Shown: piece by piece, positions 36,701 to 43,915 of the stretch
Position numbering within the stretch: position 1 is the first letter of the stretch
How the letters are laid out: each line of letters starts with the position of its first letter
From: Pirellulaceae bacterium
Lineage (GTDB): Bacteria; Planctomycetota; Planctomycetia; Pirellulales; Pirellulaceae
Direction: 5' to 3'
NCBI GenBank assembly: GCA_030681235.1
Contig: JAUXWY010000390.1
Coordinates: 1-43,915, forward strand
DNA length: 43,915 nt
Notes under the pieces: model-generated
The model's input: the letters and a program-made list of their open reading frames with translations, nothing else
Databases searched by the model: none
Told to the model about the DNA's origin: nothing
Position numbers and translations under genes: made by a program

Positions 36701-37804
36701 TCAGGATTCGTGACGTAGAACTTCGGCGCGGCGATGGCAGCGGGCGGCGCGTTCGTATTGGCCCAAGGCTTCACAGGCCTTGGCCTTGCCTTCCAGTGCT
36801 GCCATGTGGAACGGGTTGCGGGCCAAGACTCGATCGAATTTCCGCAGGGCCGCTTCGTAAGACTGTTCGGCCAACAAAGCGGTCGCCGCAGCATACGCCA
36901 ACTGGTTCACTTTGACATCGTCGGCCTGCAACTCTTCTTGCAACGCATCTTCATCATGCACGACCAACAGCGAACACGGCAACTTGCGGAGGACGCGTCG
37001 GGTGGTACTGCCCAAGAGCATACGAGTCACGCCTGATTTGCCGGTCGCGCCCATGACGATCAGATCGGCCTGCATCTCCGAGGCAGCCGCCAAAAGCTCC
37101 TGAGACGCTGAACCACTGCGAACTTCGGGACTCCAATTCACACCGCCGAAGTCCGTTTTGCCGAGTGCCGTGTGGAAACTCTCTTCCCATTGCTGCGAGT
37201 ATTGCTCGTGGACGTTCGAGAACGAGCCAACCTCGGCGGCGGCCGTGACCCAATTCACTTGCGGGACGACGGTGACCACGCGGAGTTCCGCTTGAAAGGC
37301 TTGGGCCAGTCGAATCGCGTTCTTCAGACCCCGCAACGCAGTCTCGGAGCCATCGAAGGGACAGAGAATTCTTTGCAAAAACAACGGTGTACTCGGATGA
37401 ATCACCAGCACCGGTTGATGCGCGCGCTGCATCACGGCTTCGGCGTTGGGGCCCGCAGACACCGTGCCGTAATCGTCCGGCTCGCCGACCCCCAGGATGA
37501 TCATGTCGGCTTCCAGCTCATCGGCCTTGCGGAGGATCTGATCGACCACCGAACCCGTGAGTACGATCGGGTGCGCCAACTCAACGTTTTCCTCTTTCAG
37601 CGTTTCCACCAAGGGGTCCATCAAGCGTTGCCCAATTTGGCGTCGGTAGTAGTCGACCAAGATCGAATCCGAATGAACATCCACCACGTGCAGCGGCACC
37701 ACTCGCGAACCGAATACTCGTGCCAGACGAGCAGTGACCAGCGTGAGGGAATGGCTGGCCGAGCCAAAATCAGTGGCCATCAACAGCGTTTGCAACGAGC
37801 GCAT
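36701..37804 (-). CDS. Tandem universal stress protein with C-terminal TPR-like segment
   Basis: ATG 37804 is chosen (GGAGAG six bases upstream) over a TTG at 37816; 367 aa. Two USP domains: residues ~5-140 (TLLMATDFGSASHSL, MIILGVGEPDDYG) and ~146-285 (RILCPFDGSETALRGLKNAI, LIVMGATGKSGVTRMLLGST). Only the second has the G-x2-G-x9-G-S/T ATP-binding motif; the first has lost it. The C-terminus (~300-365) is helical, with a TPR-like pattern (AEQSYEAALRKFDRVLARNP). Cytosolic; USPs support survival under stress, but the partner is unknown. A TATAAT box lies 41 bases upstream. Confidence 0.92.
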   Translation of the reverse strand: MRSLQTLLMATDFGSASHSLTLVTARLARVFGSRVVPLHVVDVHSDSILVDYYRRQIGQRLMDPLVETLKEENVELAHPIVLTGSVVDQILRKADELEADMIILGVGEPDDYGTVSAGPNAEAVMQRAHQPVLVIHPSTPLFLQRILCPFDGSETALRGLKNAIRLAQAFQAELRVVTVVPQVNWVTAAAEVGSFSNVHEQYSQQWEESFHTALGKTDFGGVNWSPEVRSGSASQELLAAASEMQADLIVMGATGKSGVTRMLLGSTTRRVLRKLPCSLLVVHDEDALQEELQADDVKVNQLAYAAATALLAEQSYEAALRKFDRVLARNPFHMAALEGKAKACEALGQYERAARCHRRAEVLRHES

Positions 37805-37844
37805 GGTACTCTCCAAGCATTAAGGTTATTCCCGCCCGACCTGA

Positions 37845-37850: not shown

Positions 37851-37994
37851 ACCGATCGCCCACTGGCCCGTGATGGAAGTGCGACCAAGAAAAGGTGCCA
37901 GGACTGAATGGCAATCCCGAACTGCGGATGACGCTGCCATTCATAGGCATTTCCGGGATCCGGAGGTATTTCGCCGTCAAATCAATTCAGGCCG

Positions 37995-38108
37995 TCACTT
38001 GTAGTAACTCACCGGGCGGGGTTTCACGCCTAGTTCTTGGTAGTTGAAACCGGGCTGTAATGGTTGGTACTCGCCAACGATTTCGACGGGACTATCAGCG
38101 CGCATGTC
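37995..38108 (-). pseudogene. 3'-end fragment of a ThuA-type gene, paralogous to 42130-43915
   Basis: On the minus strand, 37 codons plus TGA match the C-terminus of the ThuA protein at the window end. Both contain RADS-VEI-GEYQPL and end in LGV-P-PVSYYK, and the bases just past the stop also agree (GCCGTCACTTGTA on the plus strand). Upstream of codon 1 similarity stops and an in-frame TAA follows soon. No other part of the gene is present. The rest of the 37805-38232 gap shows no gene. Confidence 0.88.
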
Positions 38109-38232: not shown

Positions 38233-39600
38233 TTAACCACCGAATTCCAATGAACAGGAGGCGGACGTTGGCAAGAAAACCGAAAAGGTGGTGCCTTCCT
38301 GTGAAGTCTCGAATTCGATCCGCCCATCATGTTGGCGCACGATTTTTTCACTCAGCGCCAATCCCATTCCCGAACCGTCCTTGCGAGTCGTAAAATAGGG
38401 TTCAAAAATGAGTGGTTGATTCTCTTCGGGAATACCCGTTCCCGAATCGCTTACATCCACGCGAAGCATGTCATCGCAATTGGAAACGTGAAAGCGAAGA
38501 AGACCACCGCCCGGCATAGCCGCAATACCATTAATCGCTAAATTCAACAGCACCTGCTCCAACTGGTTGGCGTCGGCTTGGATCATCGGGATATTATCGT
38601 CGGCTGGACGGATCTCGATGCGGACGTTCTTTTCTTCAGCGTCAGGGCGCATGAGTCGGCTCAGTTTTTCAATCAGTTTCCTGACATCCACAGGTGTTCG
38701 ACCAATTTCATGGATTGATGCATAGTTTCGAAAGCCGTCCAATACGTCTCCAATTCGTTTGAATTCGGACTTCAACACGTCGAGGATCGTATTGACTTCT
38801 TCGTCACCAGTTTCCTTCTGCAATCGCTCACAGAGCAACTGCACATGCAGCGACAGCGCACTGAGCGGATTCTTGATTTCATGTTGCAAGCCAGCCGCCA
38901 GGGCTCCCAACCCGATATACCGTTCCATTCGGCGAAGGCGCTCCTGCATTAAAAAATGCGCGGTCACATTTCGAATATGGAGCACCAGCCCAATTTCCTC
39001 ATTTTGTCGATTTCTTAACACACTACCGCCAGCTCGCAAAATGACTCGGTGTCCGTTCCGGAGCGTTTGGTATTCCCGATCTCGAATTGTTTGCTGGGTC
39101 TTGTCGATCTCTTCGCAGATTTCAGCCAACGCAGAATGTTCTGGACCAAGCGTTTGGATTGATTGAAGGGGATTCTCCAAGGTCAAACCAATCAATTGGC
39201 GACCGCTCGGATTGATACTGATGATGCGCTGATTTCGGTCAATGGTGATGACCCCGGCATCCATGCTGGCCAGAATATCCGTCGACAAAACCTTGATATC
39301 CTTCAGATTGCGCTCGCTACTTAAATAGCCTCGCAACAAAAAAGAAAATGCCACAACCGTCGCACCCAGGTTGATCACCAACAACACGACCAGACCCAAT
39401 TGCAAGACCAACTCGCTCGATAACTCACGAGCCAACTGCAAATCCATTCCTTCGAGATGCCCCAACAACCTCTTGACAGTAGCCTGCTCGTGTCTAACGT
39501 TTAACAGCACCCAAGCCGTTACCACCATCGAAACCAAGCTCAGAAGGCCAAGTCCAAACGTCAAGCGTTTGATGCTGCGGTTTTCGTTGATTTCGAGCAT
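38233..39600 (-). CDS. NtrB-like membrane sensor histidine kinase
   Basis: ATG 39600 is chosen (455 aa); the longer frame upstream has no family features and would cover the sigma-54 promoter. Two membrane helices (~13-34 and ~65-89) enclose a short periplasmic loop of ~30 residues. Then a PAS domain (~101-215, ILASMDAGVITIDRNQRIIS). The H-box has His240 in LAAGLQHEIKNPLSALSLHV. The ATPase domain has an N-box (QLEQVLLNLAINGIAAM), DSGTGIPEENQ and KDGSGMGLALSEKIV. All motifs look intact. It would phosphorylate the sigma-54 regulator at 40429-41793. The two genes point the same way but are 828 bases apart, with a plus-strand promoter between. Confidence 0.94.
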   Translation of the reverse strand: MLEINENRSIKRLTFGLGLLSLVSMVVTAWVLLNVRHEQATVKRLLGHLEGMDLQLARELSSELVLQLGLVVLLVINLGATVVAFSFLLRGYLSSERNLKDIKVLSTDILASMDAGVITIDRNQRIISINPSGRQLIGLTLENPLQSIQTLGPEHSALAEICEEIDKTQQTIRDREYQTLRNGHRVILRAGGSVLRNRQNEEIGLVLHIRNVTAHFLMQERLRRMERYIGLGALAAGLQHEIKNPLSALSLHVQLLCERLQKETGDEEVNTILDVLKSEFKRIGDVLDGFRNYASIHEIGRTPVDVRKLIEKLSRLMRPDAEEKNVRIEIRPADDNIPMIQADANQLEQVLLNLAINGIAAMPGGGLLRFHVSNCDDMLRVDVSDSGTGIPEENQPLIFEPYFTTRKDGSGMGLALSEKIVRQHDGRIEFETSQEGTTFSVFLPTSASCSLEFGG

Positions 39601-39875
39601 AGAGTCCAATCCGGCTAACGACGGTTTTAAAGGGTCGCACCATGGCGGAACCGGCATCTGCAATTTCTTGCACATGCTGCACCGGATTGCGGCCCCGCCT
39701 CCCATATTCGGGAGAGCTAGCCACAAATGGCGGGGGAATCCCGAGATTTGTCGAGAAACCCGTCCGAACGAGACGAAGATCGCCGGCCCGAAATGCCCGA
39801 TATGATAAGCATAGCTGTAACCGTCAGCGCGAAAATCCCCCGATCTTGAATTCACCGGAGCGTTACTCGCATCAG

Positions 39876-39891
39876 TGGCACACCGATTGCA
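39876..39891 (+). promoter_or_regulatory. Consensus sigma-54 (RpoN) promoter
   Basis: TGGCACACCGATTGCA matches the sigma-54 consensus TGGCACR-N4-TTGCW at every defined position, with GG (-24) and GC (-12) exactly ten bases apart. The start would be near 39902, about 100 bases before the small ORF at 40004. It faces away from the histidine kinase gene and lies in the intergenic space between kinase and sigma-54 activator. No strong enhancer palindrome was identified by eye upstream. Confidence 0.8.
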
Positions 39892-40003
39892 ATAGTTACC
39901 ACGCACCGACCGAGTGTGGCAAACTTTTGCCCCGTGTGCCGGCAGATCGGCTGCGGATTTCGCAGAGGAAGCAAGACGCAAACTTTACGACAGGAACAGT
40001 AAA

Positions 40004-40219
40004 ATGGTTCGCCCCTCAATTGTTTTGTACCTAATTACCGCAGTCCTCGCCACGGATAGTGGAACGACGGCAGCCGCTTCCCGAACGTCTCCAGCAGCGG
40101 GGAACGTATCCAGCAGCAATGTGCAGGTCGTGAATCAGGAAGCCTCCTGGGTTGCACGCGAGAAACGGCAAATTCGCGAAGACGCGCGGAGCAAAATTGG
40201 CCGCGAGCTTTGCGACTAA
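40004..40219 (+). CDS. Small secreted protein downstream of the sigma-54 promoter
   Basis: 71 aa from ATG 40004, with AGGA eight bases upstream. The N-terminus is a signal peptide (MVRPSIVLYLITAVLATDSG, cut near TTAA-AS). The mature part is ~47 residues: a Ser/Asn/Val-rich stretch (SSSNVQVVNQEASWVA), then a charged segment (REKRQIREDARSKIGRELCD) likely to be helical, with a single Cys two residues from the end. I recognise no family. The position directly after a sigma-54 promoter and between the two-component genes argues it is real and is their target. An exported peptide or small periplasmic protein is the best guess. Confidence 0.5.
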   Translation: MVRPSIVLYLITAVLATDSGTTAAASRTSPAAGNVSSSNVQVVNQEASWVAREKRQIREDARSKIGRELCD

Positions 40220-40337
40220 CGGCAGTTACCGACCACATGAGTTTCCGGAACTCAGGTTTGGTATCCCAGCGGCTGTCGTTTGATTGAACCATCAATCCAG
40301 TCAATCGCATCAACAAATGGCCCAAAAAGAGATAAAG

Positions 40338-40403
40338 ATGTTGGTACTGTCGCGACGGGCGGAAGAAATCTTTGCGTCGGCTTCGTTAGCCGCCCGAGGT
40401 TAA
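40338..40403 (+). pseudogene. csrA-like N-terminal fragment
   Basis: ATG 40338 opens MLVLSRRAEEIFASASLAAR and stops at TAA 40401-40403. The first residues match the highly conserved start of CsrA (MLVLSRK/R, then Gly-Glu-x-Ile), with one codon apparently lost before EEI. The RNA-binding beta strands that should follow are absent. A decayed or transposed csrA copy is likely, though a chance match of seven residues cannot be excluded. Confidence 0.45.
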
Positions 40404-40428
40404 AGACTTGTTCCACGAGCTCAGGAGT

Positions 40429-41793
40429 TCAATGCAGCCCGTATCGACCCATTTTGTAGTGCAAGGTCCGGATGCTGATACCAAGCGCCTTGGCCGTGTT
40501 TTCGCGATGAAATCGACAAGCAGCTAATGTCGTTGAAATCGTTGTCTTTTCACACTCGTCCATTGCGTCTGCCAGTGACTTTGGCAACTTGGAGTTGGTG
40601 CGAGAAACCTTGACCAGTTCCAAGGGAAGATCGCGCTCCATGATGAGTTCGTCGGCACAGGTGACTACCATGCGCTCGATAATGTTGCGGAGCTGTCGCA
40701 CGTTTCCCGGCCAAGCGGCATTGACCAGCAGCAGCATGGCTTCCGACGAGATACGTTTTAAAGGACGCTTGTGTCGCATACAAAAATGCTCCAAGAAATG
40801 TTCGACCAGCAACGGAATGTCTTCACGACGGTTTCGCAGTGCCGGAATTTCGATCGGAATCACGTTGAGTCGATAGAAGAGGTCTTCGCGAAACGATCCT
40901 TCTTCAATTAACACTTGTGCCGTTCGATTGGTCGCGCAAATGATTCGAGCATCCGATTGTAATCTTTCTTCGCCACCGACTCGTGTGTATTCCCCGGTCT
41001 CTAGTACCCGAAGTAAATCCACTTGGCTCTTGGCCGACATCTCGGTGACTTCATCCAGGAACAAAGTACCTCCCGCGGCCTGCTCAAAGCAACCGGGTTT
41101 CTGCCGAATCGCGCCGCTAAACGATCCTTTCTCATGGCCGAAGAGCTCGCTCTCGAGCAACGAATCCGGAAGTGCGCCCAGATTGACCGCGATAAAAGTG
41201 CCACGGCTCCGCTGGCTCAAGTTATGCACAGCTCGGGCTATAAGCTCTTTGCCAGTACCGCTTTCACCATGAATCATCACCGTCGCCTCCGTCCCGGCAA
41301 CTTGTCGAACTTGACGAAAGACGTGCTCCATTGCGGCTCCGCTAGCAATAATATTGGACATCTGAACAGAGTCCGCCAATCGGTGACGCAGCGTGAGGTT
41401 TTCCTGTCGCAGCTCGTAATTCTCGCGCGCCTTTCGCACTTGTTGTCGAACCAGATTGAGGTCCACCGGCTTGCCAATGTAATCGGATGCACCGGCTCGC
41501 ATGGCTTCGACTGCCGTTTCGACCGTTCCATGGGCTGTGATCACGATGACGGCGGTTTGCGGACGACTTTGCAGCATTCGCTTCAACAGCTCAATGCCCG
41601 TCATGCTGCAATTCAAGCGGACATCAATGATGGCTAAGGCATGTTGTTTCTGTTGAAATTTGACCAGTGCTTCCTCGGAATTAGCAGCCGTATCGATCTG
41701 ATCCGCTTCCGAAGCCAGCCCGCGCGCGAGTCCAGATCGAATGTTTGGCTCGTCATCCACAATCAAGACGTTAAATCGATCAGCATCGAACAT
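40429..41793 (-). CDS. NtrC/AtoC-type sigma-54-dependent response regulator
   Basis: 454 aa from ATG 41793. The receiver domain (1-120) has DDE acidic residues 13-15, phospho-acceptor Asp57 in LAIIDVRLN, and Lys109 in GKPVDL. The AAA+ domain (~145-385) has Walker A GESGTGKE (176-183), Walker B GGTLFLDEV with Asp247-Glu248, and FREDLFYRLNVIPIEIPALR. The sigma-54 contact loop, normally GAFTGA, reads GSFSGA (223-228), a conservative variant. The C-terminal Fis-type helix-turn-helix is AKALGISIRTLHYKM. It activates sigma-54 promoters with ATP. Its partner should be the kinase at 38233-39600. Confidence 0.95.
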   Translation of the reverse strand: MFDADRFNVLIVDDEPNIRSGLARGLASEADQIDTAANSEEALVKFQQKQHALAIIDVRLNCSMTGIELLKRMLQSRPQTAVIVITAHGTVETAVEAMRAGASDYIGKPVDLNLVRQQVRKARENYELRQENLTLRHRLADSVQMSNIIASGAAMEHVFRQVRQVAGTEATVMIHGESGTGKELIARAVHNLSQRSRGTFIAVNLGALPDSLLESELFGHEKGSFSGAIRQKPGCFEQAAGGTLFLDEVTEMSAKSQVDLLRVLETGEYTRVGGEERLQSDARIICATNRTAQVLIEEGSFREDLFYRLNVIPIEIPALRNRREDIPLLVEHFLEHFCMRHKRPLKRISSEAMLLLVNAAWPGNVRQLRNIIERMVVTCADELIMERDLPLELVKVSRTNSKLPKSLADAMDECEKTTISTTLAACRFHRENTAKALGISIRTLHYKMGRYGLH

Positions 41794-42089: not shown

Positions 42090-42129
42090 GTGAAAGGTTG
42101 TCATTTCATTTGCGGCACAATCCAAGCCG

Positions 42130-43915
42130 TCACTTGTAATAGCTCACCGGATGTGGTCTCACGCCAAGTTTTTGGTAATCAAAACCACCTGGCAATGGTT
42201 GGTACTCGCCAATGATTTCGACGGAACTGTCGGCCCGAATCTTTTCTTCCATCCCCAGACCCCAATAGACCGCGTTGATGGTCAACCGGCGCACTCCCGC
42301 GTTCTCGAAATCCTCGGCCGATCCCATCGTGAAATGAAAGATGCGGCTGGGCAGATTCCGATTGCCCACCCAAGTCTTCGTCCAAGCGATGGGCAGCGGT
42401 TCTTTGCTCTTGTTCGGCGGCGAGTCGGGTTTGAGGTCCACCAACGGTTGGCCGTACACCAGCACTTCGCAGTCGGCCGGAACAGGATGCTTGTCGTCAT
42501 GGCAGCGATACACGTCCGATGTGCCCCAGATGTCCGTGACGCCCGTCAGAATTGCATGGGCTGGGTTTTCAGGTGCCAGTTGTCCGCGAGTCGATTCGCT
42601 GTGCCAACCGCCGTGATGCTCCATAAACGTTCCGCCCAACAATTGACTCAGCGACACGTTTTTCCCGTCTTTTGAATACGGCTTGCCACCCCAAAAGCCA
42701 TGGTTGGCGGTGCGCAGCGCGATGATCGGTTTGCCAGAATCAAAGTAATTGTGCCAAAGCTGCATTTGGTCATCCGGCAACTGCATGAAGCGAGATAACC
42801 AAATCACACCATCGGCCTTTTCGAGGAGTTCCAAGCCGGGAATCCGATGATGCTTGGTTTTGTCTTCGAAAGGTGCCGGCAGGGTTGGGTCGACTTCATC
42901 TTGTTCGTTGACCGAAAACAAGACCGTGCAATCAAACCCGTGGCGTTGCGACAAAATCTTGGCCAACATCGGCATCGATTGCTCGCTGCGATATTCTTGC
43001 TCTGCCGCAATCAAGACAATGTGTTTGCCTAGACCGGGCCCCTCGCCCCCTGCGTATGTCAACCAAGGATTCGCCTCGTTCTGGGTAGCATCGTTGGCAC
43101 TTGTTTGGCTTTTCTGGACCAATGGGATTTCGTTCAACGTGTAGTACGCGTTCGTGTGCAGCAATTTCTCACCGTCAGCAGATCTCATATCAGGAAGATA
43201 AAAATCGTGAACATGACCTTTCATCAGTCCATCCACTTGGATTTCGACTTTCATGCCATCGTCACTGACCGTGGCTGACATTGCCTTGGGCACGGTCTGG
43301 TCCACTTCCGGACTGCCATAGCCTTGGTGATAGATGTGCGTGAAGGTCTTGAGTTGATAAACGTCAGGACGAGCGGCAAGGTCACGATCCACGGGTTTGG
43401 TGAAAGTCAATTCAAAACCCGTTGGTCGCGCTTTGATTTCTTTGATTTCGAAGGGAACAAGTCCCGTCCAATCCAGTCGTTGCACGGAATAGGCTTTAGG
43501 CCCGCGAACCGGCCAGCCACGATTCGTGCCACCGGCGATCAAGTTGCCATTGGGCGTGAACTGGACCGCCAACAATCCGGTGTCAAAACCTTCGCGAAAT
43601 GGATAACAAGCACCCTGCCACACGCCGTTCACTTTTTCTGTCGTCGCTCGCATGACAACGCCGAGACTGAAGTCGCCAATAAAAATTTGGTTCTCAAACG
43701 GACCGAACTTGCCACCGGTCTCATCGACCATAAAGCCTGAGATCGACCGTCCCATGCGGATGTATGGAAAAACCACCGCGTAAGGCACTAGCTCTTTGAC
43801 CCTTTGCCGTTCGATCTCCAATCGCGAGGGTGTATTTGGTTCGACCGGAGCCGGCCCCATTTCGGGCGCGAGTTCGTACCAGTTGTAGCTAATGGGGTGT
43901 CCCATAAAGCCACCG
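42130..43915 (-). CDS. ThuA-domain protein with propeller-type N-terminal part, 5' end outside the window
   Basis: The frame is open to the window edge (an internal Met at 43905 is preceded by Gly-Gly-Phe codons), so the start is missing. Visible: ~595 residues. The first ~280 resemble the end of the PQQ-sugar-dehydrogenase-like propeller proteins of Planctomycetota (FGPFENQIFIGDFSLGVVMR, CYPFREGFDTGLLAVQFTPN). The C-terminal ~270 form a ThuA-type class I glutamine-amidotransferase-like fold (KHIVLIAAEQEYRSEQSMPM, ALRTANHGFWGG, HAILTGVTDIWG, RIFHFTMGSAEDFE). ThuA-fold proteins act on sugars or serve as trehalose-utilisation proteins, but the role of such fusions is unknown. A copy of its last 37 codons is at 37995-38108. 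Confidence 0.9.
   Translation of the reverse strand, partial: GGFMGHPISYNWYELAPEMGPAPVEPNTPSRLEIERQRVKELVPYAVVFPYIRMGRSISGFMVDETGGKFGPFENQIFIGDFSLGVVMRATTEKVNGVWQGACYPFREGFDTGLLAVQFTPNGNLIAGGTNRGWPVRGPKAYSVQRLDWTGLVPFEIKEIKARPTGFELTFTKPVDRDLAARPDVYQLKTFTHIYHQGYGSPEVDQTVPKAMSATVSDDGMKVEIQVDGLMKGHVHDFYLPDMRSADGEKLLHTNAYYTLNEIPLVQKSQTSANDATQNEANPWLTYAGGEGPGLGKHIVLIAAEQEYRSEQSMPMLAKILSQRHGFDCTVLFSVNEQDEVDPTLPAPFEDKTKHHRIPGLELLEKADGVIWLSRFMQLPDDQMQLWHNYFDSGKPIIALRTANHGFWGGKPYSKDGKNVSLSQLLGGTFMEHHGGWHSESTRGQLAPENPAHAILTGVTDIWGTSDVYRCHDDKHPVPADCEVLVYGQPLVDLKPDSPPNKSKEPLPIAWTKTWVGNRNLPSRIFHFTMGSAEDFENAGVRRLTINAVYWGLGMEEKIRADSSVEIIGEYQPLPGGFDYQKLGVRPHPVSYYK

Follow-up and report, generated by a model that had tools for sequence, protein, structure and literature searches.

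A candidate sigma-54 two-component circuit with its own small, probably exported target protein in a Pirellulaceae bacterium

Here, we describe a sensor locus in a 43,915-nucleotide stretch of DNA from a Pirellulaceae bacterium (contig JAUXWY010000390.1 of assembly GCA_030681235.1, positions 1 to 43,915 of the forward strand; hereafter the window), where a gene for a membrane-bound histidine kinase and a gene for an NtrC-type response regulator enclose a sigma-54 promoter-like site and a small open reading frame (ORF) that is probably the target of the pair (Table 1). The window corresponds to contig C3 of a draft genome (G000) of 6.4 Mb in 521 contigs, which is ~92% complete and in which an rpoN gene was found. 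A preliminary description made from the letters of the DNA had recognised an NtrB-like kinase and an NtrC-like activator, and the domain matches of both proteins bear this out; in the regulator PF00072, PF00158 and PF02954 score above cut-off in one protein, as is typical of NtrC-family sigma-54 activators. For the kinase the ATG at 39600 was chosen as start, with the ORF ending at 38233. Its hydropathy (Kyte-Doolittle) gives two transmembrane segments and agrees with the short loop described earlier, but the loop comes to ~36 residues and not the ~30 first given. In sigma-54 promoters the GG at -24 and the GC at -12 are separated by 10 bases and lie in near-consensus hexamers, and the site on the plus strand between kinase and regulator lies where it had been placed, with the GG and GC at that 10-base spacing. 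The 71-codon ORF with a ribosome binding site, said to follow at about 100 bases, does so with 112 bp between site and ATG.

Table 1. Coordinates and strands of the features of the sensor locus in the window.
Feature	Position	Strand	Remarks
Sensor histidine kinase, NtrB/ZraS-like, 455 aa	38233..39600	-	PAS, HisKA, HATPase_c domains
Candidate upstream activating sequence, tandem palindrome	39658..39692	.	between kinase start and sigma-54-like site
Sigma-54 (-24/-12) promoter-like site TGGCACACCGATTGCA	39876..39891	+	near-consensus
Ribosome-binding-site-like AGGAA	39992..39996	+	7 bp 5' of small-gene ATG
Small ORF, 71 codons, probably exported product	40004..40219	+	short hydrophobic N-terminus, variable middle, conserved C-terminal segment
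Response regulator, NtrC-type, 454 aa	40429..41793	-	Response_reg, Sigma54_activat, HTH_8

The small protein belongs to a family that is found in relatives of the window genome. A profile built from seven members matched 25 of 242 genomes of the taxonomic family at E<=0.01, two of which (G112, G181) were dismissed as lying inside longer open frames, and a profile of 23 rows detected the small gene in 27 of the 242 at E<=0.001, with near-identical copies in G189/G195 and in G199/G200/G009. A profile search of 396 genomes sampled from the order gave no convincing member beyond the family, five weak matches inside longer open frames (G493, G248, G491, G052, G118) having been left out. The protein had been called unrecognised, and no Pfam or NCBIfam family was matched above cut-off by the window protein or, among the 27 members, by the 23 that were scanned; among PDB profiles the best match, an antibody chain, covers a signal-like segment (E 0.0067). 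The alignment of the seven small proteins encoded at sensor loci shows conservation at both ends and variation in between, the conserved C-terminal segment having the consensus RIxxDAR/EARxxxGxEL (in the family alignment, A3, rows L268-L270 start one codon early and L277 is offset at its start). The single Cys near the end, to which attention had been drawn, did not hold up as a family feature and was rejected, since the Cys at position 70 varies among homologues. Sec-exported proteins have a positively charged n-region, a hydrophobic stretch and small residues where they are cleaved; the short hydrophobic stretch that hydropathy shows at the N-terminus suggests that the small protein is probably exported.

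The arrangement of the window recurs at sensor loci of other genomes. Kinase matches at E<=1e-75 were found in 75 of the 242 genomes, that of the window included, at 77 places, of which 71 were taken together with one from outside the family to give 72 loci. In G002 and G028 the gap between regulator and kinase holds a similar small ORF read in the same direction, with a sigma-54-like site 103-105 bp upstream, and the gaps of G119, G122 and G132 likewise hold a small ORF and a site, that of G119 being weak (score 9.5), so that this layout is present in six genomes, window included. In G078 site and small ORF lie upstream of the kinase, and the contig ends inside the small ORF, so that no regulator is seen. 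Promoter-like site and small ORF, whose lack of conservation in relatives keeping the kinase and regulator had been named as refuting the proposal, are thus kept in five further genomes and in G078, and the proposal withstands this test. Among loci ordered regulator then kinase with a gap of at least 489 bp, six of seven hold the small gene and the seventh (G244) a carbonic-anhydrase-like ORF instead, and the six other loci of this order have gaps of at most 44 bp. In a kinase tree of 72 rows the seven small-gene loci form one clade with support 100/99, nested in a family often linked to DabA. Kinase and small gene also occur together at the level of genomes (kinase in 24 of the 27 genomes with the small gene vs 51 of the 215 without).

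Sigma-54-like sites were scored with our own weights, set from the consensus, and the small-gene copies away from the regulator-kinase gap were scanned along with those inside it. A site ending 50-129 bp before the ATG is present in 24 of the 27 copies, window included, and the site-bearing copies span nine of ten genera; 18 of the 24 have the strict form TGGCAC-N6-TGC. The 20 copies outside the regulator-kinase gap carry a site in 17 cases and the strict form in 12, so that the proposed scan for the promoter in orthologous gaps has yielded sites both in such gaps and away from them. Among 14,602 control positions 524 (3.6%) scored as loose and 57 as strict sites, and among 1,332 control ORF starts 81 as loose. 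With kinship ignored, Fisher's test gives p values of 9e-32 and 4e-25 for 24 of 27 against the two loose controls, and of 4e-22 (loose) and 5e-24 (strict) for the 20 unlinked copies.

In the window, a second element lies between the kinase start and the sigma-54-like site, a tandem palindrome consisting of CTGCAATTTCTTGCAC and CTGCACCGGATTGCGG 3 bp apart (TGCA-N6-TGCA twice), which is probably the binding site of the regulator as far as sequence can indicate. Palindromes of the form [GC]TGCA-N6-TGCA[GC] are found upstream of kinases, in pairs mostly 19-23 bp apart. Single palindromes proved too frequent to serve as a test (164 of 710 control ORFs), and only tandem pairs were counted (score >=14.5, spacing 18-24). 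Such pairs stand before kinase or regulator at 36 of the 72 sensor loci and before seven of the 20 unlinked small genes, vs none of 1,458 control windows at unrelated loci (26 at a laxer score of 13.5) and one of 331 in related genomes; a control on ORF starts, with a tandem pair at 100 of 710, was set aside because its loci contain sensor and dabA sites themselves. The exact pattern TGCAN6TGCAN{4,10}TGCAN6TGC occurs a single time in the window draft genome (39659-39690), its reverse not at all in 10 genomes, and G028 and G122 have no exact match; most of the 14 exact places in the window genome and the others fall at the small gene, at dabA, at a regulator or at the sensor pair. The C-terminal Fis-type helix-turn-helix (HTH) of the regulator is, by eye, strongly conserved among 58 regulators, as expected if the tandem palindrome is its site. 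Because the palindrome lies 57 bp upstream of the kinase start, the kinase itself may also be regulated through it.

In relatives, the same motif leads to genes for the uptake of inorganic carbon (carbon dioxide and bicarbonate), a function ascribed to the DabAB or DAC systems in the cited excerpts (PMC13144422). Three loci were left unparsed, and within four ORFs of the kinase the remaining 69 contain a DabA cluster (PF10070) in 32 cases, a beta-carbonic anhydrase in 13, Porin_O_P in 12, a DabB-like subunit in 11, an RND fusion protein in nine, an RND permease in nine and a SulP transporter in eight, each cluster being named from one Pfam-checked representative. The search for dabA covered 29 genomes (G001, G003 and the 27 that have the small gene) and detected the gene in 24 of them; of the 39 match rows 25 were examined for the motif, the other 14 being lower-scoring matches or fragments. 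Twelve of the 25 are preceded by the tandem motif, and for 11 of the 12 the stretch that holds it also contains a sigma-54-like site; five of the 12 motif-bearing dabA genes are far from the kinase (G016, G190, G202, G204, G239). From these sequences, the regulon in relatives appears to be wider and to include dabA.

Some genes beside the small gene or its relatives deserve mention in their own right. In G239 (locus L277) a dabA with its own tandem motif lies ~2.2 kb downstream of a small gene that lacks a site, on the same strand. In G202 (L314) and G190 (L267) a transporter ORF of the CitMHS family (PF03600; NhaD-like by eye) is divergent from the small gene; related ORFs form clusters in both genomes, Pfam having been checked in G202 alone. 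Regulator-like ORFs with receiver and HTH and no sigma-54 AAA+ domain stand beside the small gene in G147 (L266:5011-5859) and G239 (L277:5052-5897), and such an ORF could be a natural antagonist that holds the same motif without activating.

Taken together, these observations make it fairly probable, in our judgement, that the locus encodes a sigma-54 two-component circuit with its own small exported-protein target, linked to inorganic carbon by descent. The reading builds on sequence comparison (the gene family, the conserved site, the recurring tandem palindrome and the motif common with dabA in relatives), from which we infer binding, activation, export, feedback and cue. The membrane kinase would sense an envelope or cytosolic cue and phosphorylate the NtrC-type regulator, which would bind the tandem TGCA-N6-TGCA palindromes at 39658-39692 and activate sigma-54 RNA polymerase at 39876-39891, leading to transcription of 40004-40219; the small protein would then be exported and act in the envelope. 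By analogy it is most likely an accessory or feedback protein of the response, as ZraP is for ZraSR, with feedback on the kinase as our preferred, unproven role. What the kinase senses probably has to do with inorganic carbon, pH or proton-motive force, because the regulon of this sensor pair family in relatives includes dabA. The original proposal, that the activator controls the adjacent sigma-54 promoter with a small secreted protein as output, is supported by the conserved site and ORF and by the tandem palindrome that is found also at seven of 20 unlinked copies.

Several observations weigh against this reading. As many as 51 of the 75 kinase-bearing genomes have no detectable small gene, which is thus not an obligate output of the sensor pair, and the kinase loop is alike by eye in genomes with and without it, which argues against the small protein as an obligatory ligand. 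The small-gene copies of G204, G239 and G244 have no sigma-54-like site, the loose threshold of 9.5 was fixed after the first sites had been seen, and the site statistics are uncorrected for the relatedness of the genomes. The pattern TGGCACNNNNNNTGCW occurs 34 times in the window genome vs 32 times for its reversed control, which excluded the sigma-54 consensus as standalone evidence. As to the palindrome, 13 of the 20 unlinked copies have no tandem pair, pairs are found in 40 of 8,100 upstream regions after shuffling and, of 412 windows taken from the surroundings of unlinked small genes, in three, two of which lie in front of dabA in G239, and at least three exact places have no evident link to the system (one in G078, inside an rpoN-like ORF, and two in G016). 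Export of the small protein was judged from its hydropathy. Furthermore, the motif precedes none of the nine dabA genes of the window genus or kinase clade (G000, G001, G002, G003, G028, G078, G119, G122, G132), which makes the carbon link indirect in the window clade, an ancestral hint; dabA was rejected as a target in the window genome, where no tandem motif stands before it.

A broader form of the proposal is that these presumably heterotrophic, planctomycete-like bacteria have a sigma-54 two-component regulon for inorganic carbon or pH, in which the new small exported family would be an envelope arm beside DabAB, and which in the window clade would have shrunk to the small protein, perhaps with the kinase, nested in its own sensor locus. 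This we put forward as a tentative and rather doubtful extension.

The neighbourhood of the small gene also invites the explanation that its product assists a nearby RND efflux pump, in the manner of AcrZ, a small accessory of AcrB, with the sensor pair switching that pump in response to envelope stress. RND-like permease genes lie at most ~6.5 kb from the small gene in eight of 23 genomes, with fusion-protein genes in six, and a permease also adjoins the G028 locus; the fusion-protein gene is preceded by a sigma-54-like site in G078, G122 and G132, and in G147, which has no kinase at the threshold used, fusion protein, RND and small gene stand together, and the permease shares 85-86% identity with the permeases of G078 and G119. 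However, in 14 of the 23 genomes the surroundings of the small gene showed no such pump. Compared with the pumps at small-gene sensor loci, the RND-like neighbours in G201, G202 and G222 share only 23-36% identity or do not align, and in the window the kinase is followed by a gene for a universal stress protein and not for a pump. We consider this explanation unlikely.

Less probable again, and in our estimate very unlikely, is a peptide-type autoinducer loop, in which the small protein, once exported, would serve as a signal and act back on the kinase from outside the cell. The position of the gene beside the sensor in one clade, the conserved C-terminal segment and the apparent export suggested by the sequence would fit such a signal, but 20 of the 27 copies lie outside a regulator-kinase gap, the likeness of the kinase loops with or without the small gene (e.g., L105, L110, L101) is not what it would lead one to expect, and the matches to pheromone models are weak (PhrK and PatX, E 0.015 and 0.058, in one member each).

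That site and ORF are a chance or non-coding occurrence, conserved through spacer constraint alone, is hardly credible: the sigma-54 pattern is indeed as frequent as its reversed control and the window copy is too diverged for a Ka/Ks test, but Ka/Ks is below 0.55 in all 13 computable homologue pairs, the frame is conserved at unlinked places, with its own site, and the exact tandem palindrome is unique in the genome. These Ka/Ks values (0.03-0.53) are from pairs of small genes >50% identical, four further such pairs having saturated synonymous change. Site and ORF, conserved in relatives and accompanied by a tandem palindrome that is unique in the genome, are more than chance. No structured RNA family reached the gathering score in Rfam for the locus, and no terminator was found by pattern downstream of the small ORF on its strand; the 100 nt downstream of it have a folding z of -2.24 in the window and of -4.79 to 0.50 in nine others.

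On the flanks of the locus, the universal stress protein gene that adjoins the kinase (36701-37816, same strand) encodes two Usp stretches, along with a TPR-like match that stays below cut-off. Two copies of a 123-nt direct repeat (37983-38105 and 42118-42240, 80% identical) bracket the sensor locus. The copy at 42118-42240 overlaps the 3' end of a 591-aa ORF (42130-43905), and the other looks like a leftover of the gene of this ORF; the sensor locus may be an insertion or rearrangement between the repeats.

With the circuit proposed here, a small family unrecognised by Pfam and NCBIfam gains a candidate regulator, promoter and binding motif, which makes its role directly testable. The proposal also ties a sensor system to inorganic carbon uptake; among the matches listed from the openly licensed literature (titles and abstract openings), neither such a system, nor the small-protein family, nor a two-component regulator of dabA is described. 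The window clade may in addition show the contraction of a larger regulon to a single self-enclosed target.

Among known systems, CpxP and AcrZ are small proteins of the envelope that belong with a two-component system or with an efflux pump; the Pfam and NCBIfam scans of the small protein gave no such match, with no direct search aimed at them. Sigma-54 activators of planctomycetes reportedly were the subject of an in silico study by Studholme and Dixon in 2004, by its title on Pirellula strain 1. The likeness to DabAB/DAC lies in relatives, where the sensor family is often near dabA, a DabB-like subunit and a beta-carbonic anhydrase, whereas the dabA of the window genome is on another contig and without the motif. 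The ZraPSR system of enterobacteria responds to zinc, with repression of its kinase by the small protein. As far as the excerpts cited describe it, ZraR controls the divergent sigma-54 promoters of zraSR and of zraP, which encodes a periplasmic accessory protein, and in E. coli zraP/zraSR are the main target (PMC4987338, PMC8249747). In Pfam and NCBIfam scans, which covered 23 of the 27 members, the small protein of the present family showed no homology to ZraP. In contrast to ZraPSR, the small gene here stands between regulator and kinase, so that these two do not form one divergent operon, and the motif is common with dabA in relatives. Both nevertheless combine an NtrC-family pair with a sigma-54 target, here a candidate one, that encodes a small protein and is read away from the kinase gene, and ZraPSR would therefore serve as the closest working analogue of the present locus, by resemblance and not by membership.

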